Source of the DNA: a virus
DNA length: 30,174 nt
Virus record (IMG/VR): IMGVR_UViG_3300001450_000022
Coordinates: 54,591 to 84,764 of that record
Direction: 5' to 3' (one strand)
The first letter of the stretch is position 1, and every line of letters starts with the position of its first letter. Below the pieces are notes generated by a model. The model worked only from the letters and a program-made list of their open reading frames with translations, was not told where the DNA came from and did not search any database. The position numbers and the translations under genes are program-made. Shown here piece by piece: positions 4,914 through 27,232 of the stretch.

Positions 4914-6431
4914 ATGATTTATAGTTACGAAATTGAAAAGCAGGTTTTAGCGGCCTTTTTGCAAAAACCAAAGATATTTATTAATTATCTAAATGTCTTA
5001 AATCAGAAAGACTTCTACGATAAAAACTCATTGTTACATAAAACTTTGTTTCTAATCTTAAGCAAGTCTTTGGAAAAGAACGAAAACATTGATGATGTGA
5101 TTATTGTTCAAAGGATTCAAGATCTTGGGATTAAGTTCGAGGAAGATATAAACATCCTAGATTATGTTAGGTCTTTATCAATGAGGAAAATACATTCCGA
5201 CGACAAGATAGAAAGCTCTATAAAAGAGCTTAAAAAACTAAGCGTTAGAAGAGAAATATCTGCTACTGGTCAAAAAATCACAGAGCAAATGAAATCATTG
5301 AATACGGACGTGCCATATTTAGAAATAATTGAATTAGCAGACAAAACTTATAATGATCAGATTAATCTTTTTGAAGTGGGGGATGATGTCCCACAAAATA
5401 TTTATGACGAGATGGAGAGTTTCATCGAAGACAGAGGTAACAACCCAGTTGAAGAATTTGGCATGTTTGGCCCTCATGAAAAAATTAATGACATATATGG
5501 CTCTCTTCTTAGGCCAGGCAACATAACTGTTATAGTGGCTCGCTCTGGTGTTGGTAAAACACAATTTTGCATGGACTATGCAACAAAAGTTGCGTTAAAA
5601 TACGATGTGCCTGTATTACATTTTGATAATGGAGAGATGAGCAAAGAAGAGTTGATTATTAGACAGTGCGCGGCAATATCGGGAGTAGCTTCCCATCTAT
5701 TAGAAAGCGGCAAATGGAGACAAGCTGGAGATGACGTTGTAAAGAAAGTGCGTTCTGTTTGGTCTAAAATAAGTAAACTTAAATTTTATTATTATAATGT
5801 CGGGGGAATGGATGTAGATTCAATGATCAACACTCTTAAAAGATTTTACTTTTCACAAGTCGGTCGCGGCAACAAGATGATTTTCTCTTTTGATTATATT
5901 AAAACATCTTCAGATGGAATAAGTGGAAACAAAAACGAGTGGCAGTTGGTTGGTGAAATGGTAGATAAGTTTAAAAAATGTATTCAAAAAGAAATACTAG
6001 AAGATGGCGCTCCAGTTATACCAATGATAACGTCTGTTCAATCAAATCGTAGTGGCATCACAACAAACAGAAATGCGCAAAACATTGTTGACGATGAATC
6101 TATCGTTTCTTTATCAGATAGAATCACCCAATTCTGTTCTCATATGTTTATCTTGCGTCAAAAAACTACAGATGAGATTGCTGACGATGGATCTTCCTTT
6201 GGTACTCATAAATTAATAAACGTAAAGTCTAGACATTTAGGTAAAGATATTGCAGGTGCAGTTGAACCAGTTCAAGTAGACGATAATTTACGAAAGAATT
6301 TTATCAACTTGCATTTTAAAAACTTCAACATCACTGAATGCGGAGACTTAAGAGATATCGTCTCTTTTAGAAACTCTGGCGGAGATTTAATTAACACACA
6401 ATCAGATTTGCCTTCTTTTGATGACCTATAA
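4914..6431 (+). CDS. dnaB: Replicative DnaB-like helicase
   Basis: Hexameric 5'-3' helicase that unwinds the phage fork and recruits primase. The N-terminal domain (residues 1-110) has the DnaB_N pattern (YEIEKQVLAAFL...FYD...H). The RecA-like motor follows: Walker A ARSGVGKTQ (209-217, Lys215), the DnaB-type catalytic Glu in NGEMS (241), Walker B MIFSFDYIK (322-330) and motif H4 SVQSNRSG (374-381). At 505 residues it is slightly longer than bacterial DnaB, with a C-terminal tail after the motor. The first gene after a candidate regulated promoter, it overlaps the primase gene by 11 nt, as expected for co-expressed helicase and primase. No inserted intein is visible. Confidence 0.9.
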   Translation: MIYSYEIEKQVLAAFLQKPKIFINYLNVLNQKDFYDKNSLLHKTLFLILSKSLEKNENIDDVIIVQRIQDLGIKFEEDINILDYVRSLSMRKIHSDDKIESSIKELKKLSVRREISATGQKITEQMKSLNTDVPYLEIIELADKTYNDQINLFEVGDDVPQNIYDEMESFIEDRGNNPVEEFGMFGPHEKINDIYGSLLRPGNITVIVARSGVGKTQFCMDYATKVALKYDVPVLHFDNGEMSKEELIIRQCAAISGVASHLLESGKWRQAGDDVVKKVRSVWSKISKLKFYYYNVGGMDVDSMINTLKRFYFSQVGRGNKMIFSFDYIKTSSDGISGNKNEWQLVGEMVDKFKKCIQKEILEDGAPVIPMITSVQSNRSGITTNRNAQNIVDDESIVSLSDRITQFCSHMFILRQKTTDEIADDGSSFGTHKLINVKSRHLGKDIAGAVEPVQVDDNLRKNFINLHFKNFNITECGDLRDIVSFRNSGGDLINTQSDLPSFDDL

Positions 6432-7446
6432 GGATACATTAGAAAAATTGGGATACCAATTACAAGATTGTGGTTCTCATTGGAGAACTAGAGCTGTATA
6501 TAGAAGTGGAAAAAACAAAACCGCTATTATAATATATAAAGACTCTGGAGTTTGGAAAGATTTTGGTTTAGACGATCAAGCTAAACCTTTTTCAGCTTTG
6601 GTTAGAGAAACATTAAAAACTGATAATCCAAAAGTTCTTGCAGAATATTTAAATTCTTTGCCACAAGAGGTTAATAGTGAACCTAAAATAGAAAAAATAG
6701 AAATGGAAAAAATATACCCCGAATCTTATTTGGATAAATTATTGCCAATTAGAAATTTCTATGAAAAAAAGAATATATCTAGCGATACTCAGAAAAAGTT
6801 TAAATGTGGGTACGCAGGTAGTGGTAAAATGTACCGCAGGATGGTTTTCCCAATTTACAATTTAAACGGCCAAATACACGGCTTTTCTGGACGTACAGTG
6901 TTAGAGGGAGATGGCATACCCAAATGGAAACACATGGGAAGAAAAACAGATTGGATATTTCCAAATCACCTTATAGAAACAGACAAAGAAGTTATTATAG
7001 TAGAAAGTATAGGCGACTGTTTAGCTTTACATGAAGCTGGCTTTCATAATGTATTAGTGGCTTTCGGTTTAGACGCATCTTCTAAGCTCATCTCTTTTAT
7101 AAATAGTTTTAATCTAGAGCGTGTCATTATATCAATGAACAACGACCAAGAGAAACAAATGAACTCTGGTGGCCAAGCTACCATTAAAACTGCAGCAAAA
7201 TTAGCTCAAATATACGATTTAAATCAAATATGCATTAATCCGCCCCTCATGAATGATTTCGGCGACATGTTGGAATCAAATTCTTCTAATATTAATATCT
7301 TCTCAGATTGGTATAAGAGAAAATGTAAGTGGAATTTGGGAGACAAAAAAACCCAAGATTGGATAGTTAATCAAATTAAGACAAACAAGGTTCTGCTCAA
7401 GAACGGTAATTGTAAAAAACTTTTAAAAATTTTAGATGGAAGTTAA
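6421..7446 (+). CDS. DnaG-type primase with TOPRIM domain
   Basis: Primes DNA synthesis with the adjacent helicase. The middle has the DnaG RNA-polymerase subdomain sequence RRMVFPIYNLNGQIHGFSGRTV. The TOPRIM domain follows from about residue 190: VIIVESIGDCLALHEAGF carries the catalytic Glu. The second TOPRIM motif, normally DxD, reads SMNNDQE (about 238-244), so Asn takes the first Asp position. The N-terminal 60 residues resemble the zinc-binding domain in pattern (VWKDFGL...FSALV) but have no zinc Cys set. A longer frame opens with TTG at 6418; ATG at 6421 is preferred and overlaps dnaB by 11 nt. Primase identity is fairly secure; activity depends on whether the Asn variant works. Confidence 0.82.
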   Translation: MTYKDTLEKLGYQLQDCGSHWRTRAVYRSGKNKTAIIIYKDSGVWKDFGLDDQAKPFSALVRETLKTDNPKVLAEYLNSLPQEVNSEPKIEKIEMEKIYPESYLDKLLPIRNFYEKKNISSDTQKKFKCGYAGSGKMYRRMVFPIYNLNGQIHGFSGRTVLEGDGIPKWKHMGRKTDWIFPNHLIETDKEVIIVESIGDCLALHEAGFHNVLVAFGLDASSKLISFINSFNLERVIISMNNDQEKQMNSGGQATIKTAAKLAQIYDLNQICINPPLMNDFGDMLESNSSNINIFSDWYKRKCKWNLGDKKTQDWIVNQIKTNKVLLKNGNCKKLLKILDGS

Positions 7447-8431
7447 ATTATCAGCAAGTCGTATAAAAACAGCTCAATCTTGCAGTTGGTTATATTGGTC
7501 AAAATATAAATTAAAGTTGCCAGAGCGAGGCAATGACGGCGCCAGAAGAGGTACCGTGTGCCATAATGTTTTTGAGCATTTATCTAAACAAAAAACCAAA
7601 AATCAATTTAACAAAATAGTTAAAGCTAAAGATCCGTTTGCATCGAAGGCTGTTGAAGATTTAATTATGTCTGATGCTACTGAACTTGGAGTCACGGACG
7701 AGGATAATATGAACCTTATCAAACAAATGATTCTCAATGGTTTGAGTTGTAATTTTCACGGAGAAGATTTGGGTGTCCCAGATGAAGCTCATGCAGAATT
7801 AGATTTTGATATAGAAAAAAATGGTTACCACATTCGTGGGTTTATTGACCAACTGTTTTTATACAAAGAAAAAAAAATCGCTATCATAAGAGATTACAAA
7901 ACAAGCAAGAAGATGTTTGAGGGTAAAGAAAAAGATGATAACCTTCAAGACTACATGTACTGTTTAGCTGTAAAACATTTATTCCCAGAATATGTAAACA
8001 GAAATGCAGAATTTTTGTTTTTAAAGTTTGATCTAAAGAAAAAAGGCTTAATGAAAATGAAGCCACTAGACGAGGATGATTTAGAAGGCTTTGAAATGCA
8101 GTTAGAAAATATACAAAACTATTTAGAAAATTTTAGCGAGTCTGATGCTAAAAGCAGTTTTGCATATGACAAAGGTTTTCCAGACGATGGAACATTTAGC
8201 GGCAAATTGCAGTGTGGGTTTGCCAAAGAAAAAAATCAACTCAAGAAAGACGGAACAAAAATGTGGCATTGTCCGTTTAAGTTTGATTTTTTTTATGTAG
8301 AAGTGTTAAACCACCTAGGAGAACACATAATGTCATCCTTTCAAGATGATTTTGATAAAAGTATTGTTCCAGAAGGCGGTAGCCATTCAATTAAATATTA
8401 TAAAGGTTGTCCAAAACACTTGACAAATTAA
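7436..8431 (+). CDS. Cas4/RecB-like PD-(D/E)XK nuclease
   Basis: Nuclease of the RecB/Cas4/AddB family, probably processing DNA ends or intermediates during replication and recombination. The N-terminal signature is LSASRIKTAQSCSWLYWSKY followed by RRGTVCHNVFEHL, the family's conserved R-G-x2-H segment. The active site has GFIDQL, then RDYKT with Asp153-x-Lys155, and QDYMY (Gln171, Tyr173) as the QxxxY motif. Cysteines near residue 16 and late in the protein (QCGF, HCPF, GCPK) could bind an iron-sulfur cluster as in Cas4/AddB, but the spacing is not classical. It overlaps the primase gene by 11 nt and ends beside the promoter for the polymerase operon. Confidence 0.78.
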   Translation: MEVKLSASRIKTAQSCSWLYWSKYKLKLPERGNDGARRGTVCHNVFEHLSKQKTKNQFNKIVKAKDPFASKAVEDLIMSDATELGVTDEDNMNLIKQMILNGLSCNFHGEDLGVPDEAHAELDFDIEKNGYHIRGFIDQLFLYKEKKIAIIRDYKTSKKMFEGKEKDDNLQDYMYCLAVKHLFPEYVNRNAEFLFLKFDLKKKGLMKMKPLDEDDLEGFEMQLENIQNYLENFSESDAKSSFAYDKGFPDDGTFSGKLQCGFAKEKNQLKKDGTKMWHCPFKFDFFYVEVLNHLGEHIMSSFQDDFDKSIVPEGGSHSIKYYKGCPKHLTN

Positions 8432-8453: not shown

Positions 8454-9149
8454 ATGATACCATTCTTTAAAACACATGCATCTATCGGTAAAAGCATTTT
8501 ACGCATAGATGATGTCTACGAACTAACAAAAGACTTTGATGAAGTTTATTTCATTGAAGACAGTATGACAGGCTTTCCAGAAGCGTTTAGGAAATTTGGA
8601 GATAGGTTGCGGTTTGGTTTAAGATTTTCCATGTACAACGAAGATGGAAACCAAGAATCTGAAAGTAAAATGATTGCATTCGCCAATGGAGATGCGGGGG
8701 CAAAAGAATTATATAGGTTATTCACAGAGCAGTCTGACATTAAAATTTCAAAACCTTGGGACTTTACTAAAGAGTTACAGTATATAGTGCCTTTTTACGA
8801 TTCTTTTTTACACAAGAATTTAACGACCTTTTCTAACTGTGTTATTGATTTGCCGTTTGATGTTCCTTTTATGCTTGAGGATAACAATCTACCGTTCGAT
8901 TGTTTAATCGGAGATAAAATATTAAGCTATTGCAAAAACAATCCAAATCAGCATTTTTATGGTAAGTCAATATACTACGAAAACAAAGAAGATGTTTTGG
9001 CTTTTCAGACTTATAAATTAATTTGTAACCGCAGGATAGGTAGAACTTACGATCTATCAAACCCTGGACTAGATCACTTTGGTAGTGATGAATTTTGCTT
9101 TGAATCATGGAAGACTTACTCAGATACAACTTTAAACAGCGCTATATAA
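8454..9149 (+). CDS. Detached PHP domain of DNA polymerase III alpha
   Basis: A stand-alone copy of the N-terminal PHP region of DnaE. Residues 4-14 (FFKTHASIGKS) match the opening PHP strand (H-S-x-Y-S). VYFIEDSMTGFPEAFRKFGDRLRFGLRFSM follows the alternating PHP pattern (T-D-x-x-x-x-G...F...G-I-K-P-I-x-G). Near the C-terminus, NPGLDHFGSDEFCFESW matches the end of the DnaE PHP region (RFxSDEFYLKS). Only one His of the usual metal-binding HxH is present, so PHP catalysis is doubtful and the domain is probably structural. It is first in a repressible operon whose fourth gene is the missing polymerase core. No intein halves are seen at either edge, so the pieces must associate non-covalently. 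It overlaps the exonuclease gene by 43 nt. Confidence 0.72.
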   Translation: MIPFFKTHASIGKSILRIDDVYELTKDFDEVYFIEDSMTGFPEAFRKFGDRLRFGLRFSMYNEDGNQESESKMIAFANGDAGAKELYRLFTEQSDIKISKPWDFTKELQYIVPFYDSFLHKNLTTFSNCVIDLPFDVPFMLEDNNLPFDCLIGDKILSYCKNNPNQHFYGKSIYYENKEDVLAFQTYKLICNRRIGRTYDLSNPGLDHFGSDEFCFESWKTYSDTTLNSAI

Positions 9150-9736
9150 TTTTCGATACCGAAACAGAGGGGTTAAATTTAATCACCTCTAAACCTTGGC
9201 AAATAGCTTGGATTGAGTGTGAAGGCAAAAAGGTTATCAAGAAACATAATCGCTTTATTAAATGGGACGATCTAAACGTTTCACCAGATGCTGCTCGAGT
9301 CACTGGATTCGATAGGGCTTATTACGAATCTGTTGCAGAAGATCCAAAGGTTGTTTGGGCAGATTTTGAAAAAGTTTTGTATGGCAATAATATTATCCTT
9401 GGTCATAATATCCTTGGTTATGATATTTACATCTTGGGTATTTGGGCTAGAAAAATAGGTCAAAGATTAAATCACGAAAACTTTATTGGTCAACTTTTAG
9501 ATACAAATATTTTGGCTAAAGCTATTGCGGAAGATAATAGAAAACCAGAAGATGATCTTCTTGCTTGGCAAATGCGATACTTAAATTTTAGAAGACGCGG
9601 TTTAAAAACAAATCAAAAACATCTATTACAACATTATAATATTGACTTTGACGAAAATAAACTCCATGATGCCTTATACGACATAGAAAAGAACTTTGAT
9701 ATTTTTCAAAAACAAATATGGGAATTAGAAATATGA
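9107..9736 (+). CDS. DnaQ-type 3'-5' exonuclease (epsilon-like)
   Basis: DEDDh proofreading exonuclease. ExoI is FDTETEGL with Asp17 and Glu19. ExoII is GHNILGYD (Asp106). ExoIII is LHDALYDIEKNFDIF with His187 and Asp192. All catalytic residues are present, so it should be active. It sits between the separated PHP and core genes of the polymerase, which suggests it is the proofreading subunit of that enzyme. The first ATG of the frame lies 43 nt inside the PHP gene; no other ATG precedes ExoI. The stop overlaps the next gene by ATGA. Confidence 0.88.
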   Translation: MEDLLRYNFKQRYIIFDTETEGLNLITSKPWQIAWIECEGKKVIKKHNRFIKWDDLNVSPDAARVTGFDRAYYESVAEDPKVVWADFEKVLYGNNIILGHNILGYDIYILGIWARKIGQRLNHENFIGQLLDTNILAKAIAEDNRKPEDDLLAWQMRYLNFRRRGLKTNQKHLLQHYNIDFDENKLHDALYDIEKNFDIFQKQIWELEI

Positions 9737-10935
9737 ATATAGATTTTACATCAAATTTTAACTCAATTATTATTGAAAGACCAGATCGCTTTATGCATTT
9801 AGTTCAGTGGGGTTCATTTGTCCTACCTCGTGAAATGCTCGCAGACATTGAACAAACCAATTTGTTTCAAACTGAAAACCTAAATAATTCTAATCTTACC
9901 TATAAAATTAATGAATCTGGAATCTTAATGTCTAGAGAGGGAGAGGTAGATTGGGCCTCTGAATCGCTTAATGGTGAAATAAAAATAAGCACAATCTCTA
10001 ACAATATTATTATAGAGTTCGAAGCTACTTTTCAAAACGGTTCTTTAGCAAAAGCTAATTGTATCGAAGTTAAAAAAGTAAACATAAACATTAAAGAGCT
10101 ACAAAGAAGACATGAATTTAATTTAAAAGAAGCTCTTTCGTCTCACGAATCAGACAAAGAATCTTTAATTGGAGACCAAAAGAATCAATCGAAAGAACAA
10201 TCTAAGACTTTAAAGGAAATGCAAGATTCCTTAGAATCTGCCACAAACATCTTTAGAGAAAAGTTAGTATCTGCAAAATTAAAATTCGAGGAAGAGCAAA
10301 AACAAATAGAAGAAAAAGTATTTGAAGAAAAACAAAAACTAGCCGAAGAGAAAGAAGAAGCTTTAAAAGAGAAAGACAAAGCTCTAGAAGACCAAAAGCT
10401 AGAATTTGAAAAGCGAAAAAAAAAATATACCGACACTTTATCAAACTCATCGAAATGTATCAAGACGAATGAAGAAAGAATTGGTAAGCTCTCTGACACG
10501 ATAGATCAACTATTGGGAGACATTGAGTTTATAGAAGAAAGAAAAGAGCACTTTAAAAAAGAGTTAGCTAAAGAAAAAGATATCAATTTAAAACTTTTAA
10601 GCGCTCAAAAGGATGATTCTAAATTTAAAGACTTAGAAATAAAATCCTTAAAAGCTAAATTTGAATCAGAAATTAATCAACTAAAAGTATTGGATAAATA
10701 CAAAAGAGATAACGATTTCTCCACAAAAATAGTAGAGAAAAATTCACATCATCAAAAACACATAGAGGAAATTAAAAACAATTTTGAGACAGAGAAGAAC
10801 AACCTAATCAAAAAGTTTGAAATTAAACTTGACAAAGAGAAAGAAAAGTATCATAAGGATACAGATATAGTAACAAAGAAAAAATCTATACTACAAAAAA
10901 TCAAAGATGTCTTTAGCAAATTTAAAATCCTTTAA
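9733..10935 (+). CDS. Long coiled-coil protein in polymerase operon
   Basis: Residues 1-120 look like a beta-rich globular domain. From about 125 to 385 the protein is almost pure charged heptad sequence (for example EEKQKLAEEKEEALKEKDKA), a predicted long coiled coil, ending in a basic tail KKKSILQKIKDVFSKFKIL. There is no SMC-type ATPase motif and no transmembrane segment. ATG at 9733 makes the usual ATGA overlap with the exonuclease; an ATG at 9718 would add five residues. Lying between the exonuclease and the polymerase core, it could be a scaffold joining the split polymerase or linking it to helicase, but no homologue is recognised. Antisense open frames across it are by-products of its skewed codon use. 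Confidence 0.75.
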   Translation: MNIDFTSNFNSIIIERPDRFMHLVQWGSFVLPREMLADIEQTNLFQTENLNNSNLTYKINESGILMSREGEVDWASESLNGEIKISTISNNIIIEFEATFQNGSLAKANCIEVKKVNINIKELQRRHEFNLKEALSSHESDKESLIGDQKNQSKEQSKTLKEMQDSLESATNIFREKLVSAKLKFEEEQKQIEEKVFEEKQKLAEEKEEALKEKDKALEDQKLEFEKRKKKYTDTLSNSSKCIKTNEERIGKLSDTIDQLLGDIEFIEERKEHFKKELAKEKDINLKLLSAQKDDSKFKDLEIKSLKAKFESEINQLKVLDKYKRDNDFSTKIVEKNSHHQKHIEEIKNNFETEKNNLIKKFEIKLDKEKEKYHKDTDIVTKKKSILQKIKDVFSKFKIL

Positions 10936-13483
10936 AACACCTATGCCAGTTGGCGTTAGACTACCAGAAATTGAGGTAGAACAACGCTTTTATGACGAGT
11001 TAAACATATCAAATACCTCGTCTAATTATGACTTGTTGCGTGAATTATGTTTGAAAGGTGTGCAACAAAGAGAAATATATAAGCTCAAGAACAAACAAGA
11101 GTATTACGATCGTGTGAAAATGGAATTAACCGTCTTGCAAGAGCTTGGTTTTATTGATTACATACTTCTAAATTGGGATATTCTTAATTTTTGTCACGAA
11201 AACGACATACCAACTGGCCCAGGTAGAGGCTCTGCCGCAGGTTCTTTGGTATTATATTTATTAAAAGTAACAAATATTGATCCAATTCAGTATAATCTCT
11301 TTTTTGAGCGATTTGTATCTAAGAGCAGAGCTAAAAAGACCATTGTTGACGATATAACGTACCTAGACGGCTCTTTGTTGGCTGACGTGGACAATGACAT
11401 CAGTTACGATAGAAGAGCCGAGGTAATCAAATATATCGAAGATAAGCATAAAGGTAAAACATGTAAAATTTTAACTCTCAACACATTGAGTAGCAAATTG
11501 TGTGTAAAGGAGTGCGGTAAGATCGTAGGGGGTTTTTCAGAGGAAGATGTTAATGATATTAGCGCCTCTATTCCAAAGCAGTTCGGTAAGGTATTTAAGT
11601 TAAATAAAGCTTACGATGAAAGCGAAAAACTTAAAAAGTTTTGTGATGACAACCCAAAAGTATTTAAAATAGCCAGAAAACTAGAAGGATTAAATAAGAA
11701 CACTGGCGTTCACCCATCGGGGATTGCGATTAGTTTCTATAATATCGACGAGGTAATGCCAATGCAAAAAACAAACGATGGCAATTATGTTTCGGGGTAT
11801 GATATGAATGATGTGGCATCTTTGATGGTTAAGTTCGATATTTTAGGTCTAAGAACTTTATCTGTTGTTTATGATACACTTCAGCAATTAGGTAAAAAGG
11901 TAGAAACTATAGATGTCGAATCAACAGATATATATGAAAATTTCAAATTCATTGAGGCACCAAAAGGCCTCTTCCAGATTGAAGCGGACACAAACTTTAA
12001 GGCAGCTAGGAAAATTGCTCCCAGGAACCTTGAAGAACTGTCTGCTGTTGTCGCTATTGCTCGTCCTGGTGCTCTTGATTACTTAGACACGTACGCTAGC
12101 TATGTAAAGACTGGTGTTTTCAGTTCTGTGCATGAGTTCTTTGATGATATACTTTCGTATACTGGCGGGATACCTTTATACCAAGAGCAGTTAATGCAAA
12201 TGGCTGTTAAAGTTGGTTTTACATTAGATGAAGCGGAACAACTAAGAAGGATTGTCGGCAAAAAGAAAGTAGATTTAATGCCAGCTTGGAAAGCTAAGAT
12301 TGAAGAAAAAGTAGAAGAAAAAGATTTACCAAAACAGGTCGGTGACGTTTTATGGAAGGTGGCAGAAGATTCAGCTAATTATTCTTTTAATAAATCACAC
12401 TCAATTAGCTACGCTACATTAGCTGCGATAACAACATACTTGAAATTTAATCATTCCAAAGAGTTCTTTTTATCACTGCTTAAAATGACAAAGCATGAAC
12501 CAGATTCTCATGCAGAAATTTCTTTAATTAGCCAAGAGCTCTGTCTCTTTGATATGAAGCTTTTGCCACCAGATTTATCCAAGTCTGACGTTGAGTTTTC
12601 TATTGAGGATAAAAACATTCGTTATGGAATTAACAGTATAAAAGGTGTTTCTGAAAAAACATTAGAAAACTTAGTTGAGTTTAGAAAATCTGAATTACTG
12701 CAACAAACCAAATATGATGTTTTTGTTTCAGCTAAACAATCTGGTATCAATATTGGTATTGTATCTGGCTTAATACAAGGCGGAATGATGGACTCTTTCT
12801 GTAATTTTGTTGATGGTGTTCCAAACAGATGCCGTCTAGTCTTAGAGGCTCAAGCATTTAACCTTCTGACAGACAGAGAAAAAAGAAACTTTATTAGTTT
12901 AGGCGATAGACTTGATTACGACATTCTTAATTCTATTGCTTACGTTAAAAAAGAAAACTATCCAGGAGATGACTCTAAGCCACTAATGAAAGACTCTAGA
13001 TTTAAAACTTTCAAAAGAGATTACGATAAGTACCGTCAAATTTATGACAAAAATAAAGAGCATTTAGTTTTCGCTAACTGGTACTTTGAACGCAAGTATT
13101 TGGGATATAGTCATTCTAATGAAATTAAAAAAGTTTTTAAAGAGACTAAAAACTTAGTAAACACATTGGAATTAAAGTCCGTTGATCTTAACGACCGTGT
13201 AAAGTTTGTCGGAGTTGTGACAGATTGTGTGTCAAGAAAAAGTAGGGCTGGAAACAAATATATGATGGTCGAAATACAGGATGATTATGGAAAAATTAAA
13301 TTTATGATGGCCAATAACAGAAGATCTGCCGCGCTAGACATTTACTTAGAGAGAGGTGGTAAAAAACCTAAAGAAGGGCAGATTGTATTTATATATGGCA
13401 GTAAGGGTGATGATATAATATTCGGAGAAAAAATAAATATCCTGGACGAAAAAATCTATACAAGATTATCCGAAATAAAATGA
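10907..13483 (+). CDS. dnaE: DNA polymerase III alpha catalytic core without PHP
   Basis: C-family replicative polymerase lacking the N-terminal PHP domain. It begins just before the palm (LPEIEV...LRELCLKGV...YYDRVKMELTVLQELGF). GPGRGSAAGSLV (104-115) is the diagnostic motif. DNDISYDRRAEVI aligns with the catalytic DVDF block, giving Asp162 and Asp164. ARPGALDYLD holds the third aspartate (about Asp394). YSFNKSHSISYA is the fingers motif. A helix-hairpin-helix-like segment (SIKGVSEKTLENL) and a C-terminal OB-fold (about 763-858) follow. About 16 residues are inserted before the catalytic aspartates. At 858 residues it is about 300 shorter than E. coli DnaE, as expected from the missing PHP. 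The start at 10907 lies 29 nt inside the coiled-coil gene; Met13 (10943) is an alternative. Confidence 0.9.
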   Translation: MSLANLKSFKTPMPVGVRLPEIEVEQRFYDELNISNTSSNYDLLRELCLKGVQQREIYKLKNKQEYYDRVKMELTVLQELGFIDYILLNWDILNFCHENDIPTGPGRGSAAGSLVLYLLKVTNIDPIQYNLFFERFVSKSRAKKTIVDDITYLDGSLLADVDNDISYDRRAEVIKYIEDKHKGKTCKILTLNTLSSKLCVKECGKIVGGFSEEDVNDISASIPKQFGKVFKLNKAYDESEKLKKFCDDNPKVFKIARKLEGLNKNTGVHPSGIAISFYNIDEVMPMQKTNDGNYVSGYDMNDVASLMVKFDILGLRTLSVVYDTLQQLGKKVETIDVESTDIYENFKFIEAPKGLFQIEADTNFKAARKIAPRNLEELSAVVAIARPGALDYLDTYASYVKTGVFSSVHEFFDDILSYTGGIPLYQEQLMQMAVKVGFTLDEAEQLRRIVGKKKVDLMPAWKAKIEEKVEEKDLPKQVGDVLWKVAEDSANYSFNKSHSISYATLAAITTYLKFNHSKEFFLSLLKMTKHEPDSHAEISLISQELCLFDMKLLPPDLSKSDVEFSIEDKNIRYGINSIKGVSEKTLENLVEFRKSELLQQTKYDVFVSAKQSGINIGIVSGLIQGGMMDSFCNFVDGVPNRCRLVLEAQAFNLLTDREKRNFISLGDRLDYDILNSIAYVKKENYPGDDSKPLMKDSRFKTFKRDYDKYRQIYDKNKEHLVFANWYFERKYLGYSHSNEIKKVFKETKNLVNTLELKSVDLNDRVKFVGVVTDCVSRKSRAGNKYMMVEIQDDYGKIKFMMANNRRSAALDIYLERGGKKPKEGQIVFIYGSKGDDIIFGEKINILDEKIYTRLSEIK

Positions 13484-14856
13484 GTGATTTTTCAAATTAT
13501 AATTTAACACCTTCGGCTAAAAATGCTTTAGTGCAAGCTCAAGACATAGCGGAGGAGCATGGCCACTTAAAAGTGATAGACGTCCATTTGATTTATTCCG
13601 TGCTTTGTTTGAATCATGCCAATATTGATTTTTGCATGGAGTCTAATGGTCTTTTAAAGGAAGGTTTTTCTGAGTCTATACTTTTAGTATTGGAAAGATA
13701 CAAAGAGCCAAAAAGAAAAAAGAAAATATTTGCTCCAGAAATATTCGACATTTTAGACGAAGCCCAAAAAACAGCAGATAAAAATGAAGATCAATTTATA
13801 GGAGTCGATCATATTTTTATATCTATATTACAAACAAGAAAAGAATTAAGAGCTTTCTTTATAGGTCTTGAAGTTGATGTTATAAAATTATGTGCGTCTC
13901 TTTTATACACAATTAAATACGGAATAGATTACTCCACACCTCCCCCTATTCCAAGCAACAATGTGCAAAATCAACAAAAACCAAAACAAGATATAGGTGA
14001 TTGGTGCGAAAACATGAACAAAACCATCAAAGAACGTGGGACGTTTGAAATTTTTGGTAGAGAAAAAGAAATAAATAGAACTTTCGAAATTCTTTTAAGA
14101 AAAAACAAAAGCAATGTTATTTTAGTTGGAGAAGCTGGTGTTGGCAAAACTGCCATTGTGGAAGGGTTAACTGAAAATATACTACAAAAAAAATGCCCCA
14201 AATTCTTATTAAACAAAAAAATACTTTCTTTAGACATGACTTCTGTTTTAGCTGGCACAATGTATCGTGGTCAAATGGAAGAAAAGGTAAAATCCATAAT
14301 AGATGAAATATCTAGTAGCGATGAATATGTTTTGTTTATTGATGAAATACACACGATTGTCGGAGCAGGAAATTCTGAGGGTGGTTTAGACTTAGCTAAT
14401 AGCTTAAAACCAGTCCTATCTAGAGGTGGATTTGCTTGTATTGGGGCTACAACAAAAGATGAGTACGATAAATACTTTAAAACAGACTCTGCCCTAAATC
14501 GTCGTTTTGAAAAGATAGATGTGTTAGAGCCAAGCAAAGAAGAAACTTTAACTCTAATGAAAAAAGCTAAACTTTCATATGAAAAATTTCACAATATAAA
14601 ATTCACTCCATCAATTATTAAAAAAGTTATTGACTTGTGTTCAGAATATTTACCTACTAAAAAATTCCCAGACAAAGCTTTTGATATTTTAGATGAAGCT
14701 GGGGCAAAAACAAAAATACAAAACATTAAAGAGGAAGAGGGTAAAAGGGTTGAGGCCGACACGATATATGAAATTTTTGCACAAAAACTAAATACAAGTA
14801 TTGACAATGTAAAAACAAATACCAATATAAATGTAGGCAATAAAATAGGTTTTTAA
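13480..14856 (+). CDS. ClpA/ClpC-like ATPase with N-domain and D1 only
   Basis: Residues 1-145 form the double Clp N-domain (LTPSAKNALVQAQDIAEEHGH and the second repeat APEIFDILDEAQKTADKNEDQFIGVDHIF). A linker leads to one AAA+ module: FGREKEI, Walker A GEAGVGKT (217-224), Walker B VLFIDEIH (Asp288, Glu289), IGATTKDEY as sensor 1, NRRF with the arginine finger (about 341) and FPDKAFDILDEAG as the small domain. It stops where the second AAA+ module (D2) of ClpA would begin and has no ClpB-like middle domain. So it keeps substrate/adaptor-binding and ATPase parts but lacks the D2 unfolding and ClpP-docking unit. It overlaps the polymerase gene by 4 nt. It could be a dominant interactor of host Clp, an oligomeric chaperone or a motor recruited to replication. 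The last residues are KIGF. Confidence 0.85.
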   Translation: MSDFSNYNLTPSAKNALVQAQDIAEEHGHLKVIDVHLIYSVLCLNHANIDFCMESNGLLKEGFSESILLVLERYKEPKRKKKIFAPEIFDILDEAQKTADKNEDQFIGVDHIFISILQTRKELRAFFIGLEVDVIKLCASLLYTIKYGIDYSTPPPIPSNNVQNQQKPKQDIGDWCENMNKTIKERGTFEIFGREKEINRTFEILLRKNKSNVILVGEAGVGKTAIVEGLTENILQKKCPKFLLNKKILSLDMTSVLAGTMYRGQMEEKVKSIIDEISSSDEYVLFIDEIHTIVGAGNSEGGLDLANSLKPVLSRGGFACIGATTKDEYDKYFKTDSALNRRFEKIDVLEPSKEETLTLMKKAKLSYEKFHNIKFTPSIIKKVIDLCSEYLPTKKFPDKAFDILDEAGAKTKIQNIKEEEGKRVEADTIYEIFAQKLNTSIDNVKTNTNINVGNKIGF

Positions 14857-15114: not shown

Positions 15115-16197
15115 ATGCTTGAAGAAGATTTAAATCCAAATGTAAATTTTTCTGAAATATTGAAAGGGCGTTTAATAACTAGCACTTTTGATTTTACCAT
15201 GAGTGATGTAGAAAAATCTTTTCTAAAGGACATATTCGAGAAAAACCCCAAAATAAAACATGAATTTAAAAAAATAGATTCAATAGAGCTTTTAGACAGA
15301 AATTTCTTTTATGATATTTACAGGTTTAAATGCGAGGGGAAAGGATATTGTTTAAAACTTGGAGACAGACACGACAATTACATATTTAAAAGAGAGTATT
15401 CTTTTTTAGACAAAATCAAAGAAAAAAAAATATCGCCAAGACCCATATTGAATGGAAGGGGTAAAGATTATTCGTACTTAATTACCACCTATGAATTTAG
15501 CGAATCAATAAAACAATTAGGTATATCGTTTTTGATATCTAATATAAAACTTTTTTCTAAGACTTTAAAAGATATTCATGAATCTTCTAAGACGGAATCA
15601 AGCGAAAAAGAAATGTTCATTGATATGTATATTTCAATGGGGGCTTTCAATGAAATTTTAGATCAAAAACAATTAAATGCTTTAAGATCTTTTGGGAATT
15701 TTGAAAAATGTGAGCAGATACTAAAGGGACTAGAAGACACAATAAAGATTCAAGTTCCATCAATGGTAGAGCAGGATCCCTGCATATGCCACATGAACTT
15801 AACGGAATCAAATATACTGTATAGAGGTGGGTTATTTAAATTATGTAATTTTCATAAATCTTTTAATCTTAACCCGCTTTGGGATTTAGCAATGACCTCT
15901 TTAAATCTTGGGTTTAACAGTCACCCCAAATTAGAAGAAAAATTTATTAAGCATTACTCCAAAGAAAACATGCATCATATAAAAAACATCTTACCAGCAT
16001 ATAAAGACGTTTGTTATAAATTAATTTTGTATGAAATTATATGCGTTTACTTTTATAAAATAATCATTACAAAAGAAGATAGATCTCTTGAAAGTTTGTT
16101 CTTTGCGTATGAAACTATTAGGCCATTGATATTAAATGAATTTCCAATGTATACAAAGATATTAGACCCAATGTTCGGCGATTTTAATAAAATTTAA
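15115..16197 (+). CDS. APH/choline-kinase-fold protein, probable pseudokinase
   Basis: The overall pattern is that of aminoglycoside-phosphotransferase-like kinases. GYCLKLGDR carries the N-lobe Lys81, and KREYSFLDKI the helix-C Glu. The catalytic-loop equivalent is CHMNLTESNILY (His226 to Asn233). The second active-site segment is KLCNFHKSFNLNPLWDLA, ending in the family's conserved PLWDLA. In active kinases these read HxDxxxxN and (I)DF/DW. Here both aspartates are Asn (Asn228 and Asn245), so phosphotransfer is unlikely, although the Lys, Glu and metal-binding Asn233 remain. It could bind a nucleotide or small molecule. First gene after the terminator at 15074-15099; its stop overlaps the next start (TAATG). 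No signal peptide. Confidence 0.65.
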   Translation: MLEEDLNPNVNFSEILKGRLITSTFDFTMSDVEKSFLKDIFEKNPKIKHEFKKIDSIELLDRNFFYDIYRFKCEGKGYCLKLGDRHDNYIFKREYSFLDKIKEKKISPRPILNGRGKDYSYLITTYEFSESIKQLGISFLISNIKLFSKTLKDIHESSKTESSEKEMFIDMYISMGAFNEILDQKQLNALRSFGNFEKCEQILKGLEDTIKIQVPSMVEQDPCICHMNLTESNILYRGGLFKLCNFHKSFNLNPLWDLAMTSLNLGFNSHPKLEEKFIKHYSKENMHHIKNILPAYKDVCYKLILYEIICVYFYKIIITKEDRSLESLFFAYETIRPLILNEFPMYTKILDPMFGDFNKI

Positions 16198-16961
16198 TGA
16201 AATTATTTTTTGACCATATTTGTGGTAAACAAGCAGATACTGACTTCATACACACTTTAGTCAGTGCCACAGTAAATAAAGAAGAAGAACAAGAAGCTTT
16301 AGATAACGGCTGGTGCCCATCTAATATATGGTACAAACAAGATACAAATTTTGTTAAACAAAATAAAATCATTTGGTATCAAAGCAGACAAACTCGACTA
16401 GATTTAAGCAAGTACACGGAAACCAAGAACGAAAAAAAAGCTTGGAAAAAAATCGCCAAGGGGAATGTTAAAACAGAAATAACTACTGACCCAGATTTTA
16501 AAAAATTATATAAAATTTATAAAAACTATGTTTGTTATAAAAAATTTTCTTCAGTATTGTCTCAAGAAGAGTTTATTGAAGTTTACGAAAAAGGAAATCA
16601 CGTTTTTTTAATTTATGGAGACGTCGCTTTCAGTGTCGTGCAAAAAGTAGGAAAAAGCTTATTAGCTTATCAATTTTGCTGGGGTTATGAAGATAAAGTA
16701 TTAGGTTTAGGCAGATTTTCTACATATAAAGAAATAAGTTTAGCTAAAGACTTAGGCTTAAAATATTTATATCTTGGGCCAAGTTACGAAAGCCATGGAA
16801 GGTACAAAAGCTCATTTCCAGGATTTGAGTTTTGGACAGGTAGAAAATGGTGCTCTGATGAATCAAAATACTTTGACTTATTGGATCAAGATGAGAAAAT
16901 AATTTCCGTTGAAGATTTAATTGGTTCTTACAATTCATTTTTTGATTCTTTTTCAGTATAA
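16197..16961 (+). CDS. Leucyl/arginyl-tRNA-protein transferase-like GNAT protein
   Basis: The layout follows bacterial Bpt/Ate enzymes, which move Leu or Arg from tRNA to protein N-termini to make N-degrons. ALDNGWCPSNIWYK matches LxxxGFRRSGxxxYKP. QSRQTRLDLSKYTETKNEKK matches the xxRISVxxFxxSRSQKR region. FKKLYKIYKNYVCYKK matches the LYxRYxxxRH helix. LGLGRFSTYKEISLAKDLGLKYLYLGPSYESHGRYKSSFPGFEFWTGRKW matches the C-terminal GNAT segment including LGYxIxxCxxMxYK. The CxxC of cellular Bpt, which sits before the RISV-like segment, is missing, and the MxYK segment reads GRYK. Substrate or specificity may therefore differ. Another GNAT role, such as peptidoglycan Fem-type transfer, is the main alternative. 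Its end overlaps a convergent minus-strand gene by 34 nt. Confidence 0.6.
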   Translation: MKLFFDHICGKQADTDFIHTLVSATVNKEEEQEALDNGWCPSNIWYKQDTNFVKQNKIIWYQSRQTRLDLSKYTETKNEKKAWKKIAKGNVKTEITTDPDFKKLYKIYKNYVCYKKFSSVLSQEEFIEVYEKGNHVFLIYGDVAFSVVQKVGKSLLAYQFCWGYEDKVLGLGRFSTYKEISLAKDLGLKYLYLGPSYESHGRYKSSFPGFEFWTGRKWCSDESKYFDLLDQDEKIISVEDLIGSYNSFFDSFSV

Positions 16962-17641: not shown

Positions 17642-18109
17642 ATGCAATACAATTTATATAAACCAAACGCCAAATCAACAGGTTGCGCTTTTTCTTTTAA
17701 AATCATCACAAAAGATAAAGAAGGCAATCCATCAAAGCCAACATTTTTAATTCAAGCGATTAAACAAGCCAGTTGGAATTCCAGTAAAAAAACAGGGTCT
17801 TTTAGTGCCAATGCCAAAGATCCAGAAAAAAATATTTATTGCAAAATCAATGAAAACGAAGTTGGCGCAATCATTGACGCTATTGAAAAGTATACAGATT
17901 GGTCAGCGTACCATACTTATAACGATGATAAAACAACAATGTCATTCAAACCGTACACAAAACCAAATGGCGCAGAAGCTTGGTCTTTTGGTGTGATTAA
18001 AAATTCCGCTTTAAAATTCGGCATAGGTATTGAAAAGGGCGAAGCCAGAACTTTTAAAACATTATTGGAATTATATTTAATTACATTATTTAGTTATGAA
18101 TGTTTATGA
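17642..18109 (+). CDS. Possible ssDNA-binding protein (PC4/whirly-like)
   Basis: A 155-residue protein. It has an N-terminal strand pattern GCAFSFKII...FLIQAIKQASW, then a KTGSFSANAKDPEKNIYCKI segment, a helix NENEVGAIIDAIEKYT, and a second strand set (AYHTYNDDKTTMSFKPY...AWSFGVI) ending with LKFGIGIEKGEARTFKTLLELYL. The strand-strand-helix repetition resembles PC4/whirly-type ssDNA-binding proteins. This is based on pattern only, with no diagnostic motif, so the function is tentative. It begins a new plus-strand unit divergent from the 16928 gene, and its stop overlaps the glycosyltransferase start by ATGA (18106-18109). Confidence 0.4.
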   Translation: MQYNLYKPNAKSTGCAFSFKIITKDKEGNPSKPTFLIQAIKQASWNSSKKTGSFSANAKDPEKNIYCKINENEVGAIIDAIEKYTDWSAYHTYNDDKTTMSFKPYTKPNGAEAWSFGVIKNSALKFGIGIEKGEARTFKTLLELYLITLFSYECL

Positions 18110-19791
18110 AAACGATACTTTACCACTCAAATAACTCTAAAGCTTTTACTGGTTTTGGTAAGCATTGTAAAAATATTTTAAAATACCTACAAAAAACTGG
18201 TAAGTATAAAATAGTTGAATTTGCAAACGGCTCCAAATGGAACGACCCATCGAACCAATTCAAACCCTGGGAGTGCAAAGGTAGTTTACCAGACGATCCA
18301 TCAGTTTTACAACAATTAAACAATGACCCAAACCGAGCTCGTGCGGCTGGTTATGGAGGTGAGATGGTAGATGAAGCTATTAAAAAATATAAACCAGATC
18401 TTTATATTGGGGTCGAAGATATATGGGGTTTTGGAGGTTATTGGGACAGACCTTGGTGGAATAATATAAATAATATGATTTGGACTACATTAGATAGTCA
18501 ACCAATTTTGCCTCAAGCCTTAGAAGCTGCACCAAAAACAAAAAACTTTTTTACTTGGGCCTCTTTTGCAGAAAAAGATATGGCTAAAGAAGGTCATGAT
18601 CATGTCAAAACATTGCATGGCACAGTCAACACCCAAGATTTTCATAGATTGTCAGACACTCAAAGATTTCAATTAAGAAATAAATTTGGCATATCCAATG
18701 ATTATATTGTTGGTTTTGTATTTAGAAATCAACTTCGCAAAAGTGTTCCTAACTTATTAGATGGTTTTAAAACTTTTAAAAAAGACTGTAGGAACGCTAA
18801 ATTACTTCTACACACTCATTGGTCAGAAGGTTGGGACATACCAAGATTAATAAAAGAAAAAGGTATAGACAACAAAGATGTGTTGACTACTTATTTCTGC
18901 ACTGCTTGCAATCAATATGAAATCCGTCCATTTACTGGTCAAAAACAAACATGTGGTCATTGTGGAGCAAAGGAAACATTGAACACTACTAATGTTGGCG
19001 CTGGCGTTAGCGAAGAACAACTAAATGAAATCTATAATATGATGGATGTTTACTGTCATCCGTTTACAAGTGGAGGTATGGAAATACCAATCTTTGAAGC
19101 TAAATTAACGGAGCTAATTACTCTAGTAACAAATTATTCATGTGGTGAAGATTCTTGCACTTCTGAAAGCGGAGGACTTCCACTTGAGTGGGCTGAATAC
19201 AGAGAACCTGGTACTCAATTTATTAAAGCTTCCACTTACGCATCTAGCATAGCCAAACAACTAAAAAAAGTTTGGCAAATGAAAAGAGACAAAATAAGAG
19301 AAATCGGCAAGAAAGCTCGAGAATTTACAATTAAAAATTATTCAATAGAATCTGTCGGCAAAAAACTAGAAAATATTATTGATAACATGCCAGATATTGA
19401 ATATGATTATATTTTTGGTGATGATAAAAAAAACAAAGACTTAGAAGAACTATTAGATCCAGGCAGAAGATTGGCCGTTGTCATGCCAGAGTCCGCTGGT
19501 GATGTTTTGTGGATTAATAGTTTGATGGATAATACTAAAAAGCTTTATCCAGATCACGATATTTACGTATTCACTAAACAACATTTTTTTGATTACATTG
19601 AAGACCACCCACATGTTCACAAAGTATTACCTTATGCTCCAGAAATAGATAACTTGCATTTCTTGGAGGGTAAAAGTCTGCACAAAGGATATTTTGAAAT
19701 GGCATTCTTGCCTCACTATGGAACTCAAAGATTTCATAATTACCACCATAATGGATTAGATAAAACTCAATTTGAATTATATGAAAATTAA
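18106..19791 (+). CDS. GT4 glycosyltransferase with zinc ribbon, fused to GT9 N-half
   Basis: Residues 1-420 form a GT-B glycosyltransferase of the GT4 type: YHSNNSKAFTGFGKHCKNIL at the N-terminus, IVGFVFRNQLRKSVPNLLDGF at the start of the nucleotide-sugar domain, and SGGMEIPIFEAK as the E-x7-E-like donor site. A CxxC-x14-CxxC zinc ribbon (Cys265, 268, 283, 286) is inserted in the donor domain. From about residue 454 a new Rossmann domain begins (RRLAVVMPESAGDVLWINSL), which is the N-terminal half of a GT9/heptosyltransferase-like protein. It stops after about 105 residues; the matching C-half is in the gene at 20157. ATG 18106 is chosen for its ATGA overlap; 18100 is possible. It likely builds a phage-directed glycan with the nearby genes. 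Confidence 0.75.
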   Translation: MKTILYHSNNSKAFTGFGKHCKNILKYLQKTGKYKIVEFANGSKWNDPSNQFKPWECKGSLPDDPSVLQQLNNDPNRARAAGYGGEMVDEAIKKYKPDLYIGVEDIWGFGGYWDRPWWNNINNMIWTTLDSQPILPQALEAAPKTKNFFTWASFAEKDMAKEGHDHVKTLHGTVNTQDFHRLSDTQRFQLRNKFGISNDYIVGFVFRNQLRKSVPNLLDGFKTFKKDCRNAKLLLHTHWSEGWDIPRLIKEKGIDNKDVLTTYFCTACNQYEIRPFTGQKQTCGHCGAKETLNTTNVGAGVSEEQLNEIYNMMDVYCHPFTSGGMEIPIFEAKLTELITLVTNYSCGEDSCTSESGGLPLEWAEYREPGTQFIKASTYASSIAKQLKKVWQMKRDKIREIGKKAREFTIKNYSIESVGKKLENIIDNMPDIEYDYIFGDDKKNKDLEELLDPGRRLAVVMPESAGDVLWINSLMDNTKKLYPDHDIYVFTKQHFFDYIEDHPHVHKVLPYAPEIDNLHFLEGKSLHKGYFEMAFLPHYGTQRFHNYHHNGLDKTQFELYEN

Positions 19792-20173
19792 TATACCAGT
19801 TTCTGCAGGAGAATTAGTTGACAAGCTAACCATTCTTGACATAAAGATAGAAAACATTAAAGATAAAAATAAAATTTCTAATATAAAATACGAAAAAACG
19901 CATTTACAACACTTGTACGAACAAAAATGGTATCATAAGTTTGTTGATGTAGAGGCCTTACGCGACGTGCTTTATCAAATTAATAGGGGCTTGTGGGCGA
20001 TAGAAGACGCCATAAGAATAAAAGAAAAAAACAAAGAGTTCGACGAAGAGTTTGTTAAATTAGCTAGAGATGTTTATAAAACTAACGACAAAAGATTCGA
20101 AACAAAAACAAAAATCAATAAACTTACCCAATCAGAAATAGTAGAAGAAAAATCATATGAGTCATATAATTGA
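19781..20173 (+). CDS. DUF6165-like protein, 130 aa
   Basis: The N-terminus MKINIPVSAGELVDKLTILDIKIENI is, from memory, the hallmark of the DUF6165 family, short helical proteins often beside glycosyltransferases. The rest is charged helices with a Trp-rich middle (LWAIEDAIR). The molecular role is unknown. An open frame begins at TTG 19772; ATG 19781 fits the family start and overlaps the previous gene by 11 nt. It sits between the two halves of a GT9 domain, so it may bridge them or have been inserted there. Confidence 0.65.
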   Translation: MKINIPVSAGELVDKLTILDIKIENIKDKNKISNIKYEKTHLQHLYEQKWYHKFVDVEALRDVLYQINRGLWAIEDAIRIKEKNKEFDEEFVKLARDVYKTNDKRFETKTKINKLTQSEIVEEKSYESYN

Positions 20174-21284
20174 AGTTTACGCAAAAGATCTTGGCGTTAA
20201 AGTAGGAAAGCCAACAATAACCGAGCACTTCTACCCAGGATTGCCAGAAAAATATATTACGATACATTCATCCAATAAAATGGTTGCATCGGATTATAAA
20301 TATTGGGACATTGTGCTTTGGCTTGTGGACGATCATTTAAGTAAAAATAATATTAAAACGGTGCAAGTGGGAGGCCCTGACGACAAACCAATAAAAGGGA
20401 TCGATGTAAATCTTATAGGTACCTCATTTAAACAAATGAATTATATCATAAATAATTCTTTAACACATGTCGGTTGTGATAGTTTGCCTGGGCATATAGC
20501 AAGTTCTTATGATATACCATCTGTAATTTTGCATTTTAATCTTTACAAAGAAAACTCAAAACCAATTTGGCATGAAAAAAATACATGCGTAAGCATAGAG
20601 CCAGACTTCAGTGAGAAAAAACCATCTTTTGGTTTAAATTGCTCGCGTATAAATGAAATTAAACCAGAGATTATAGCCCAATCAATTTTAGATCAATTAG
20701 ATATTAAAGAAAAAATAGAATTCAAAACAGTAAGAATTGGGCGAGAGTTTCATAATGAATCAGTAGAAATTGTTCCTAACTTTTTTGGCGAATCCCAATC
20801 ATTATTTCAACAAGCGATTAACTTGCGTGCTGATCTACACTTTGATTTAAATAACATCATTGCTTGGAGTCAGTATTGCTTAGTTAACCTGCATTTAAAC
20901 CAAGAAATATCAGAAGAAGCTCTACATAACTGCGTTAACTTGAAGCAAATTGTTTTTCATTATTCAGAAAAGCACCAAGACCAAGATCTAAACAAATTTT
21001 TTAAAATTTTAAAAAATAAAAAAATCAATCTAATTATTATTTGTGCAGAGCATACGAAAAACATTTCTGAAATTAGATTAAAGTATTTCGACTACGCAGT
21101 TACAGAAATTAAATTTCCTAAAAATGAAGTTAAAGCTTCAAAATACCTTTCTAAAAAAAGCTTTATCACAGACGGTAAATCTTTTACTTCTGAATCTTCT
21201 GCAAAAAGACTTGACAATTCTAATAACTTCGTTTACGATGAAGTTTCATCAAAAGAATTAGAAAGTTTATATTTATATGAGTAG
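20157..21284 (+). CDS. GT9 C-terminal half fused to an unknown domain
   Basis: Residues 1-185 are the C-terminal Rossmann half of a GT9/heptosyltransferase-like enzyme: HIIEVYAKDLGVKVGKP, YITIHSS, VQVGGPDDK, and LTHVGCDSLPGHIASSYDIPSVILHF, which matches VVGNDSGPMHLAAALGVPTVALF. The normal first half is absent here but present at the end of the gene at 18106. Residues 186-375 are an unrecognised mixed alpha/beta region. The ATG lies 17 nt inside the DUF6165-like gene, and the stop overlaps the next start by 8 nt. Together with the upstream genes it could assemble as a split glycosyltransferase. Confidence 0.68.
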   Translation: MSHIIEVYAKDLGVKVGKPTITEHFYPGLPEKYITIHSSNKMVASDYKYWDIVLWLVDDHLSKNNIKTVQVGGPDDKPIKGIDVNLIGTSFKQMNYIINNSLTHVGCDSLPGHIASSYDIPSVILHFNLYKENSKPIWHEKNTCVSIEPDFSEKKPSFGLNCSRINEIKPEIIAQSILDQLDIKEKIEFKTVRIGREFHNESVEIVPNFFGESQSLFQQAINLRADLHFDLNNIIAWSQYCLVNLHLNQEISEEALHNCVNLKQIVFHYSEKHQDQDLNKFFKILKNKKINLIIICAEHTKNISEIRLKYFDYAVTEIKFPKNEVKASKYLSKKSFITDGKSFTSESSAKRLDNSNNFVYDEVSSKELESLYLYE

Positions 21285-26851: not shown

Positions 26852-27232
26852 TTACACTACAAATACGATAGCTTCATCTATTGATTCGTCTTGTTGCTTT
26901 AAAATAACTTTAAAATTAAATTTTTTTAAATTTATTAATTTTTTATTAATAATTGCGCCCATCTCTTTTACTGTTTGAAATGCTTCTTTTTCAGTCTCTA
27001 GATTTTCATTTAACAAATCTATCTGGATCCATAAGTTTGGATACTTTATCCTTTCGTTTTTAAATCTAGTTTCGTTAAATATAGAAAATCCGATGAACAT
27101 TTTATCCTGCATTTTTATTTCAATTTTTTTTGCAGAAATAGAATAACCAGACGGATTACTTTCATTATTTATTTTTGATATAAATACTTTTTCCTTTTGA
27201 GGGGGTAAAATTTTTATTTCTTGATGCAACAT
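26852..27232 (-). CDS. Hypothetical tail-operon protein, 126 aa
   Basis: Unrecognised. It has no signal peptide or membrane segment. Alternating hydrophobic/polar segments (KKIEIKMQDKMFIGFSIF, YPNLWIQIDLL, FNFKVILKQQ, EAIVFVV) suggest a beta-sandwich-like protein with one charged helix (ETEKEAFQTVKEMGAII). Its ATG overlaps the stop of the upstream tail-tip gene by one base (TAATG), and it ends 12 nt before the second tail-tip gene, so it is co-translated with them. A tail assembly factor or small tip component is a guess from position. Confidence 0.6.
   Translation of the reverse strand: MLHQEIKILPPQKEKVFISKINNESNPSGYSISAKKIEIKMQDKMFIGFSIFNETRFKNERIKYPNLWIQIDLLNENLETEKEAFQTVKEMGAIINKKLINLKKFNFKVILKQQDESIDEAIVFVV

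Follow-up and report, generated by a model that had tools for sequence, protein, structure and literature searches.

In a stretch of 30,174 nucleotides (the window, meaning this stretch at its whole length), which forms the final 30 kilobases (kb) of a virus record of 84,764 bases (IMG/VR record IMGVR_UViG_3300001450_000022, positions 54,591 to 84,764), the alpha subunit of a DNA polymerase III (Pol III) was found to be divided between two genes at the border of its PHP domain. The PHP domain and the polymerase core are predicted to be separate proteins, termed PHP and POL, and the gene of a proofreading-type exonuclease, termed EXO, is located between the halves, as the initial annotation had stated. 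The explanation that we consider likely is a C-family (DnaE-type) replicase working as separate chains, in which PHP would dock non-covalently on the core in the place that it has in cellular Pol III. The genes concerned are the following.

8454..9149, + strand: PHP, a predicted stand-alone DnaE-type PHP domain of 231 amino acids (aa) with a degenerate metal motif, recognized by family profile and fold
9107..9736, + strand: EXO, a DEDDh proofreading-type exonuclease of 209 aa (PF00929, E value 1.1e-13 over residues 14-200; phrog_192)
9718..10935, + strand: a coiled-coil protein of 405 aa in a variable slot, without a Pfam family
10907..13483, + strand: POL, a PHP-less DnaE core of 858 aa with palm, fingers, HhH and OB (PF07733, PF17657, PF14579)

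The four open reading frames (ORFs) lie on the same strand and overlap by 43, 19 and 29 nucleotides in succession, EXO starting 43 nucleotides inside the PHP gene, and POL overlaps the next gene (at 13480) by 4 nucleotides.

The PHP protein and the polymerase core

The window's 231-aa protein alone gave no significant match in Pfam, PHROG or the PDB sequences, and its tblastn search against 50,697 phage records returned nothing useful, so that its identity was revealed only by a family profile and by the fold. The family, termed A1, was assembled from 93 PHP ORFs, which were reduced to 50 representatives at 85%, and 49 of these, the window's included, were aligned; L049, whose PHP ORF is short and broken, and partial PHP ORFs were excluded, and L046 was trimmed to its first 262 residues. 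The Pfam PHP family (E <= 1) was matched by 42 of the 49 members with a best value of 1.9e-15, the window's protein being among the seven without a match, so that Pfam overlooks this gene family in the window, and phrog_405, the phage DnaE family, was matched (E <= 0.1) by 45 of the 49 (best 9e-27). The A1 profile is aligned to residues 51-252 of Taq DnaE (E 0.001) and more weakly to PolC, and the profile-profile comparison with seven DnaE N-termini reached a probability of 97.6 and an E value of 3e-12 over 193 columns.

The AlphaFold model of the 231-aa protein, with a predicted local distance difference test (pLDDT) score of 90.7, yielded only DnaE or PolC among the best 23 rows of a Foldseek search. 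In VIA-align the model could be superposed over its whole length on residues 6-252 of E. coli Pol III (Z 21.0, root-mean-square deviation 3.2, 222 residues), and Z was 20 to both Taq 7-265 and M. tuberculosis 10-278. Taken by class, Z ranged over 17.6-21.0 for DnaE and 16.5-17.5 for PolC, and was at most 11.9 for non-polymerase PHP proteins; phage DnaE proteins of the viral library were matched as well. By its model, the product is a complete DnaE-type PHP domain, which bears out the initial reading of this gene. The A1 profile found no second PHP in the 84.8-kb record besides the gene at 8454; the Pfam PHP profile had no match in the record either, a weakly informative result, as it also missed the gene at 8454. 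In one relative (L046:9989-11344) the end of the PHP gene carries a fused domain of some 190 aa, which resembles gp080 of Synechococcus phage S-CBS2 (32%) and for which no Pfam family was found.

The core was recognized by Pfam as Pol3 palm/NTPase (PF07733, 7.4e-63), finger (PF17657, 6.1e-27) and HhH (PF14579, 2.5e-13), and it covers columns 328-1047 of the 1190 columns of phrog_405. The OB domain after HhH stays below the Pfam cut-off (17.8 bits against 27), but residues ~746-850 match OB folds with Z 11-12. In the POL model (pLDDT 85), whose core is nearer to DnaE (Z 27.6-38.5) than to PolC (20.1-28.3), residues 11-14 are aligned to Taq 284-290 and the end to Taq 1121-1123; the alignment stops at Taq 1123 and the chain 10 residues later, in the region of the C-terminal (tau-binding) domain. 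The rows against E. coli begin at 85-97, and one M. tuberculosis row begins at 116 and the other at 298; the starts at 85-97 and 116 are taken as a misplaced, low-confidence N terminus of the model. Residues D160, D162, D164 and D311, which we take from the Taq alignment to be the catalytic aspartates, are invariant in all 25 aligned cores. The POL chain possesses no PHP domain of its own, as had been proposed, and the break does fall on the domain border: PHP ends at Taq 265 and POL begins at Taq 284-290, extending to 1123, and the two are therefore complementary parts of one DnaE. Together they account for DnaE as far as the C-terminal domain, except for about 20 residues at the border that neither covers.

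Another division was observed in three relatives (L112:11614-14598, L207:3980-6861 and L213:3989-7873), where the core itself is encoded by two genes with apparent split-intein halves between ...NYSFNK and SHS.... The first half in L207 matches Pfam Intein_splicing with 3.2e-07 and 30.7 bits, under the cut-off of 35.8, and a 317-aa NUMOD3 protein is inserted between the core halves of L213. This break is very near the split-intein site of cyanobacterial DnaE.

The metal site of PHP appears from the alignment to be lost. The motif HHDHEH[C/H]DH is given as the definition of an active PHP site (PMC12926913). HxH near the N terminus was found in none of the 49 A1 proteins. At the positions that correspond in the alignment to Taq D212 and H214, both of them metal ligands, all 49 members carry S/T and Y/F/L/K, with neither D nor H, and further ligand positions are also replaced, single positions being uncertain in an alignment of ~10% identity to Taq. 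Conservation is instead highest in a PFYDSF segment and at residues of the C-terminal motif HFGSDEF. In EXO, residues D17, E19, D106, H187 and D192, which we take from the motif to be the DEDDh residues, are invariant in 25 of 25 aligned sequences. PMC3666897 reports that PHP sites tend to be degenerate where a separate exonuclease exists, and a degenerate PHP beside an EXO with an invariant DEDDh set agrees with that link.

Spread of the arrangement and selection on its genes

The first two scans for relatives delivered 89 loci which, like the window, have 1.5 kb or more of the stretch ahead of the polymerase start, and a separate PHP ORF followed by EXO and then by POL was present in 90 of 90. 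Because many of these loci had been reached through a PHP query, the counts from polymerase queries are fairer: with the polymerase as the query, 54 loci were obtained, of which 7 were cut off, and PHP and EXO were found in all 47 with upstream DNA. A further scan by polymerase alignment, confined to the best 80 of 586 confirmed relatives, disclosed PHP in 74 of 79 new loci, the five without it being L147, L185, L192, L198 and L202.

Altogether, 190 loci (8 from metagenome-assembled genomes; 12 without a polymerase start) were grouped into 115 clusters at 95% identity, a cluster being scored positive if one member shows the order. PHP, EXO and POL follow one another as separate ORFs in 111 of the 115 clusters, which makes a chance arrangement untenable, and the fused versions for which the initial annotation had proposed a search were encountered in none. 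The four remaining clusters have no PHP in the examined DNA; in one of these records a PHP gene is present at a greater distance upstream, and the remaining ones are three contigs (4.5, 24.5 and 5.0 kb) with the polymerase gene near the end. A fused PHP may occur in more distant relatives beyond the best 80 of 586. Neighboring genes overlap or are separated by less than 100 nucleotides in 76 of the 111 clusters for PHP/EXO, in 73 for EXO/POL and in 53 for both.

Trans-splicing at the PHP/core break was considered and rejected. The tails of the PHP ORFs past the A1 profile have a median of 2 aa and a maximum of 22 (n 178), except for the 197 aa of L046, which constitute another domain, and the heads of the POL ORFs reach at most 20 aa before their own profile (n 179, except L123, a phage gene outside the family). 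In view of the lack of any intein-sized extension there is no sign of such splicing, in line with the initial statement that no intein flanks the break.

No isolated phage of the family was found among the 1329 phage records that match the core, all at <60% identity (near-identical records were possibly omitted). Among the matches listed, the phage rows covering most of the core have 22-32% identity, and the relatives used as queries came no closer. PHP, EXO and POL were also seen in contigs binned as Lokiarchaeota, Woesebacteria, Halobacteriovorax, Verrucomicrobiales, Proteobacteria and Flavobacteriaceae (L109-L116), which are probably misbinned virus contigs or proviruses.

The ratio of nonsynonymous to synonymous substitution (dN/dS) of PHP was 0.050-0.097 in the 6 of 14 pairs for which it could be computed, rough values in view of a dS of 0.9-2.1; of the others, 7 were saturated and 1 was identical. 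Between the window and L003 the ratio was 0.050 for both PHP and POL and 0.036 for EXO, but 0.456 for the coiled-coil protein (188 residues aligned, in this one pair). Purifying selection on PHP is about as strong as on EXO and POL, and, since it persists despite the degenerate site, PHP must still have a job. According to PMC3666897, the PHP domain is strictly conserved in bacterial replicative polymerases and the role of a catalytically dead PHP in replicases is incompletely understood; a conserved separate PHP offers a natural system in which it can be added or omitted in trans to follow stability, synthesis and proofreading.

Proposed association of the chains and the genomic context

In the explanation that we favour, PHP would be translated as its own protein and return to the canonical DnaE site on the core without a covalent link, where it would stabilize the core and help to seat the separately encoded DEDDh exonuclease; EXO would then perform the proofreading and the product of the core gene the synthesis. 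PHP is probably a structural subunit and an exonuclease platform in trans, the role being regarded as structural or stabilizing because the metal site is lost. From these observations we infer the association of PHP with POL in trans, the dependence of the core on PHP and the docking of EXO on PHP. PMC3642679 describes residues 1-270 of E. coli alpha alone as well behaved with full exonuclease binding, and residues 1-255 as insoluble, and PMC3666897 states that the PHP domain stabilizes the Pol III polymerase; a separate PHP acting in trans is therefore feasible, and the phage gene break lies at nearly the same cut as that of alpha 1-270. Among 38 loci, the partial gene-distance correlation of PHP is strongest with POL (0.42), which we regard as weak evidence of their tie.

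Several observations weigh against this explanation. No bacterial-type sliding clamp (PF02768) was detected in the record, which is possibly incomplete; the search covered this clamp type only. The catalytic domain of EXO (to 200 of 209) is followed by about 9 residues without an epsilon-like tail, so that EXO must be seated otherwise than in E. coli or on POL. Over the same 38 loci, the partial correlation of PHP with EXO is -0.10, and the plain distance correlation of PHP with the primase (0.819) exceeds that with POL (0.805). Moreover, the genes of PHP and POL can be up to ~2.9 kb apart (L023), and the structure predictions are of single chains only.

A bolder form of the same explanation, which we put forward tentatively and would not quite favour, is that of an obligate three-chain C-family replicase (PHP, EXO and core), in which PHP would serve as an exchangeable adaptor setting the amount of polymerase and carrying the proofreader, its detachment having happened at least twice in phages. 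If true, the three-chain replicase would be a natural experiment on the role of a metal-free PHP in a replicase.

It is unlikely that the free PHP binds mainly EXO and is recruited by it to the fork without being a stable part of the polymerase. The closeness of the PHP and EXO genes in 76 of 111 clusters and the sufficiency of E. coli alpha 1-270 for exonuclease binding (PMC3642679) would suit such a role, but EXO adjoins POL about as often (73 of 111), it is devoid of the C-terminal tail that is used in E. coli, and the partial correlation of PHP is negative with EXO and positive with POL.

Less probable still is that PHP is an independent enzyme, a phosphoesterase or nuclease, which has ceased to cooperate with the polymerase. 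PHP is indeed a free protein, and the other PHP proteins that its model matches (Z <=11.9) are enzymes; nevertheless, the polymerase PHP folds are far closer (Z 16.5-21), HxH occurs in 0 of 49 members with further ligand positions replaced, and PHP accompanies the polymerase gene in 111 of the 115 clusters.

The initial annotation had envisaged a four-part polymerase held together, perhaps, by the coiled-coil protein, an arrangement that was suggested by the position of this gene between EXO and POL with short overlaps and that now appears highly improbable. The 82 complete cores were reduced to 50 cluster representatives, and in these 50, which were the ones inspected, a homologue (blastp E <= 1e-3) is located between EXO and POL in only five, the window included. 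In the near relatives L005, L009 and L061 the slot is empty and EXO overlaps POL by 19 nucleotides; certain close relatives carry shorter homologues, and at other loci, read by eye, different ORFs occupy the slot or separate PHP from EXO. The protein also evolves fast in the one measured pair. It is probably no part of the polymerase and looks like the cargo of a variable site.

Finally, an artefactual split (a frameshift, an assembly error or a decaying gene) is hardly credible, for although a few relatives look broken (POL of L019 consists of two overlapping ORFs, and the PHP ORF of L049 has 110 aa), the identical split recurs in 111 of 115 clusters with another gene in between and under purifying selection.

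Three genes upstream of PHP belong to the same gene row, and an ATPase gene follows POL.

4914..6431, + strand: DnaB-type helicase (PF03796, PF00772), same gene row
6418..7446, + strand: DnaG-like primase with Toprim (PF08275, Toprim families), same gene row
7436..8431, + strand: PD-(D/E)XK nuclease (PF12705, E value 3.7e-18), same gene row
13480..14856, + strand: Clp-type ATPase of 458 aa, downstream of POL

The large terminase, ribonucleotide reductase and lambda-J-like tail protein genes present elsewhere in the record identify it as that of a tailed phage. The Clp-type ATPase gene is the sole match of a clamp-loader profile in the record. Its wider family mostly measures 750-840 aa, and since the members of the window's branch have 458-502 aa, the second half of the ATPase has apparently been lost from this branch. 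The third gene after it (16197-16961) resembles ATE_C, an arginyl-tRNA protein transferase family (27.7 bits, cut-off 25), and its homologues occur in seven sources, five of which are the window and stretches identical to it; with the Clp-type ATPase nearby, it possibly represents a phage-borne N-degron step. On the minus strand, tandem lambda-J-like tail proteins of 1613 and at least 946 aa are encoded at 21998-26839 and 27232-30174. Sugar-modification genes (cytidylyltransferase, phosphoheptose isomerase, nucleotide-sugar epimerase and glycosyltransferases, one of the latter scoring below the Pfam cut-off) occupy 1-1984 and 18100-21284.

Relation to known systems

A close cellular counterpart is E. 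coli DnaE with epsilon, which shares with the window the domain order, a probably inactive PHP and a separate DEDDh exonuclease; the differences are that the E. coli PHP is part of the alpha chain and that the C-terminal tail of epsilon binds it. PolC has the same order of PHP, exonuclease and polymerase along the DNA, a resemblance to which the initial annotation had drawn attention. Kinship with PolC was nevertheless rejected: the PolC exonuclease interrupts the PHP within one chain, whereas in the window the PHP runs uninterrupted along E. coli 6-252, the exonuclease is a separate gene, and both the fold matches of PHP and the core lean to DnaE.

Among isolated phages, the gene layout was read in 19 polymerase-gene regions out of the 1329 matching records. 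PHP lying in the polymerase chain was inspected directly in L103-L108, L123, L132 and L134, was matched by the A1 profile in L105, L127 and L133, and was deduced from gene length only in several others, for example L124, L125, L126, L128, L129 and L130. A PHP/core split was present in two of the 19, NarutoRun and MortySmith, which are Microbacterium phages of the Krampus group. In NarutoRun, as in the window, PHP is encoded by a gene of its own (345 aa, Pfam PHP 3.8e-35), which is followed after 10 nucleotides by a PHP-less core of 767 aa, and MortySmith has the same pair with a core of 766 aa; in both (L131:1953-5304 and L135:1824-5172) the two genes of the pair are annotated as DnaE-like polymerase. 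The split in the window can still be called unusual, as first suggested, but it is preceded by that of these isolated phages. In PMC7302621, the cluster EF Microbacterium phages (AnnaSerena, Krampus) are noted to have two Pol III alpha-related genes where one is typical, and apart from this remark the open-access literature, to which the search was confined, yielded no recognizable description of a Pol III alpha PHP domain with a gene of its own.

The Krampus-group PHP differs from that of the window in that, by eye, the metal-motif residues and the linker following the domain are kept, so that the two splits differ in position by this linker, and the two genes have no exonuclease between them. 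The window family (20 rows) forms its own clade with full support (100/100) in a tree of 39 cores, and NarutoRun and MortySmith group with the actinophages Sadboi and SirHarley (98/94), whose PHP is in the chain. Of the inner branches of the tree, 9 are open or weak, and four of its end branches are long; only its well-supported groups were used. As the Krampus-group and window splits belong to different well-supported groups, a common origin is disfavoured, albeit on a weak backbone; the simplest reading would be two separate events, and one old PHP/core split with later fusions may be the alternative.

Pol III alpha is also encoded by two genes in Cellulophaga phage phi13:1, Mycobacterium phage Fowlmouth and Bacillus phage KLEB27-3, but there, unlike in the window, it is the polymerase itself that is interrupted, the first half retaining the PHP; an HNH gene occupies the break in KLEB27-3. 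In cyanobacteria, the DnaE polymerase is encoded by two genes with a split intein, and split-intein "fractured" genes were reportedly described by Dassa et al. in 2009. Such genes provide, like the window, a polymerase from two genes, but the PHP/core break of the window is free of any intein-sized extension. Compared with these systems, the arrangement is best described as a widespread variant of the split phage Pol III alpha genes, in which the break falls at the PHP border and the degenerate PHP persists as a separate protein.

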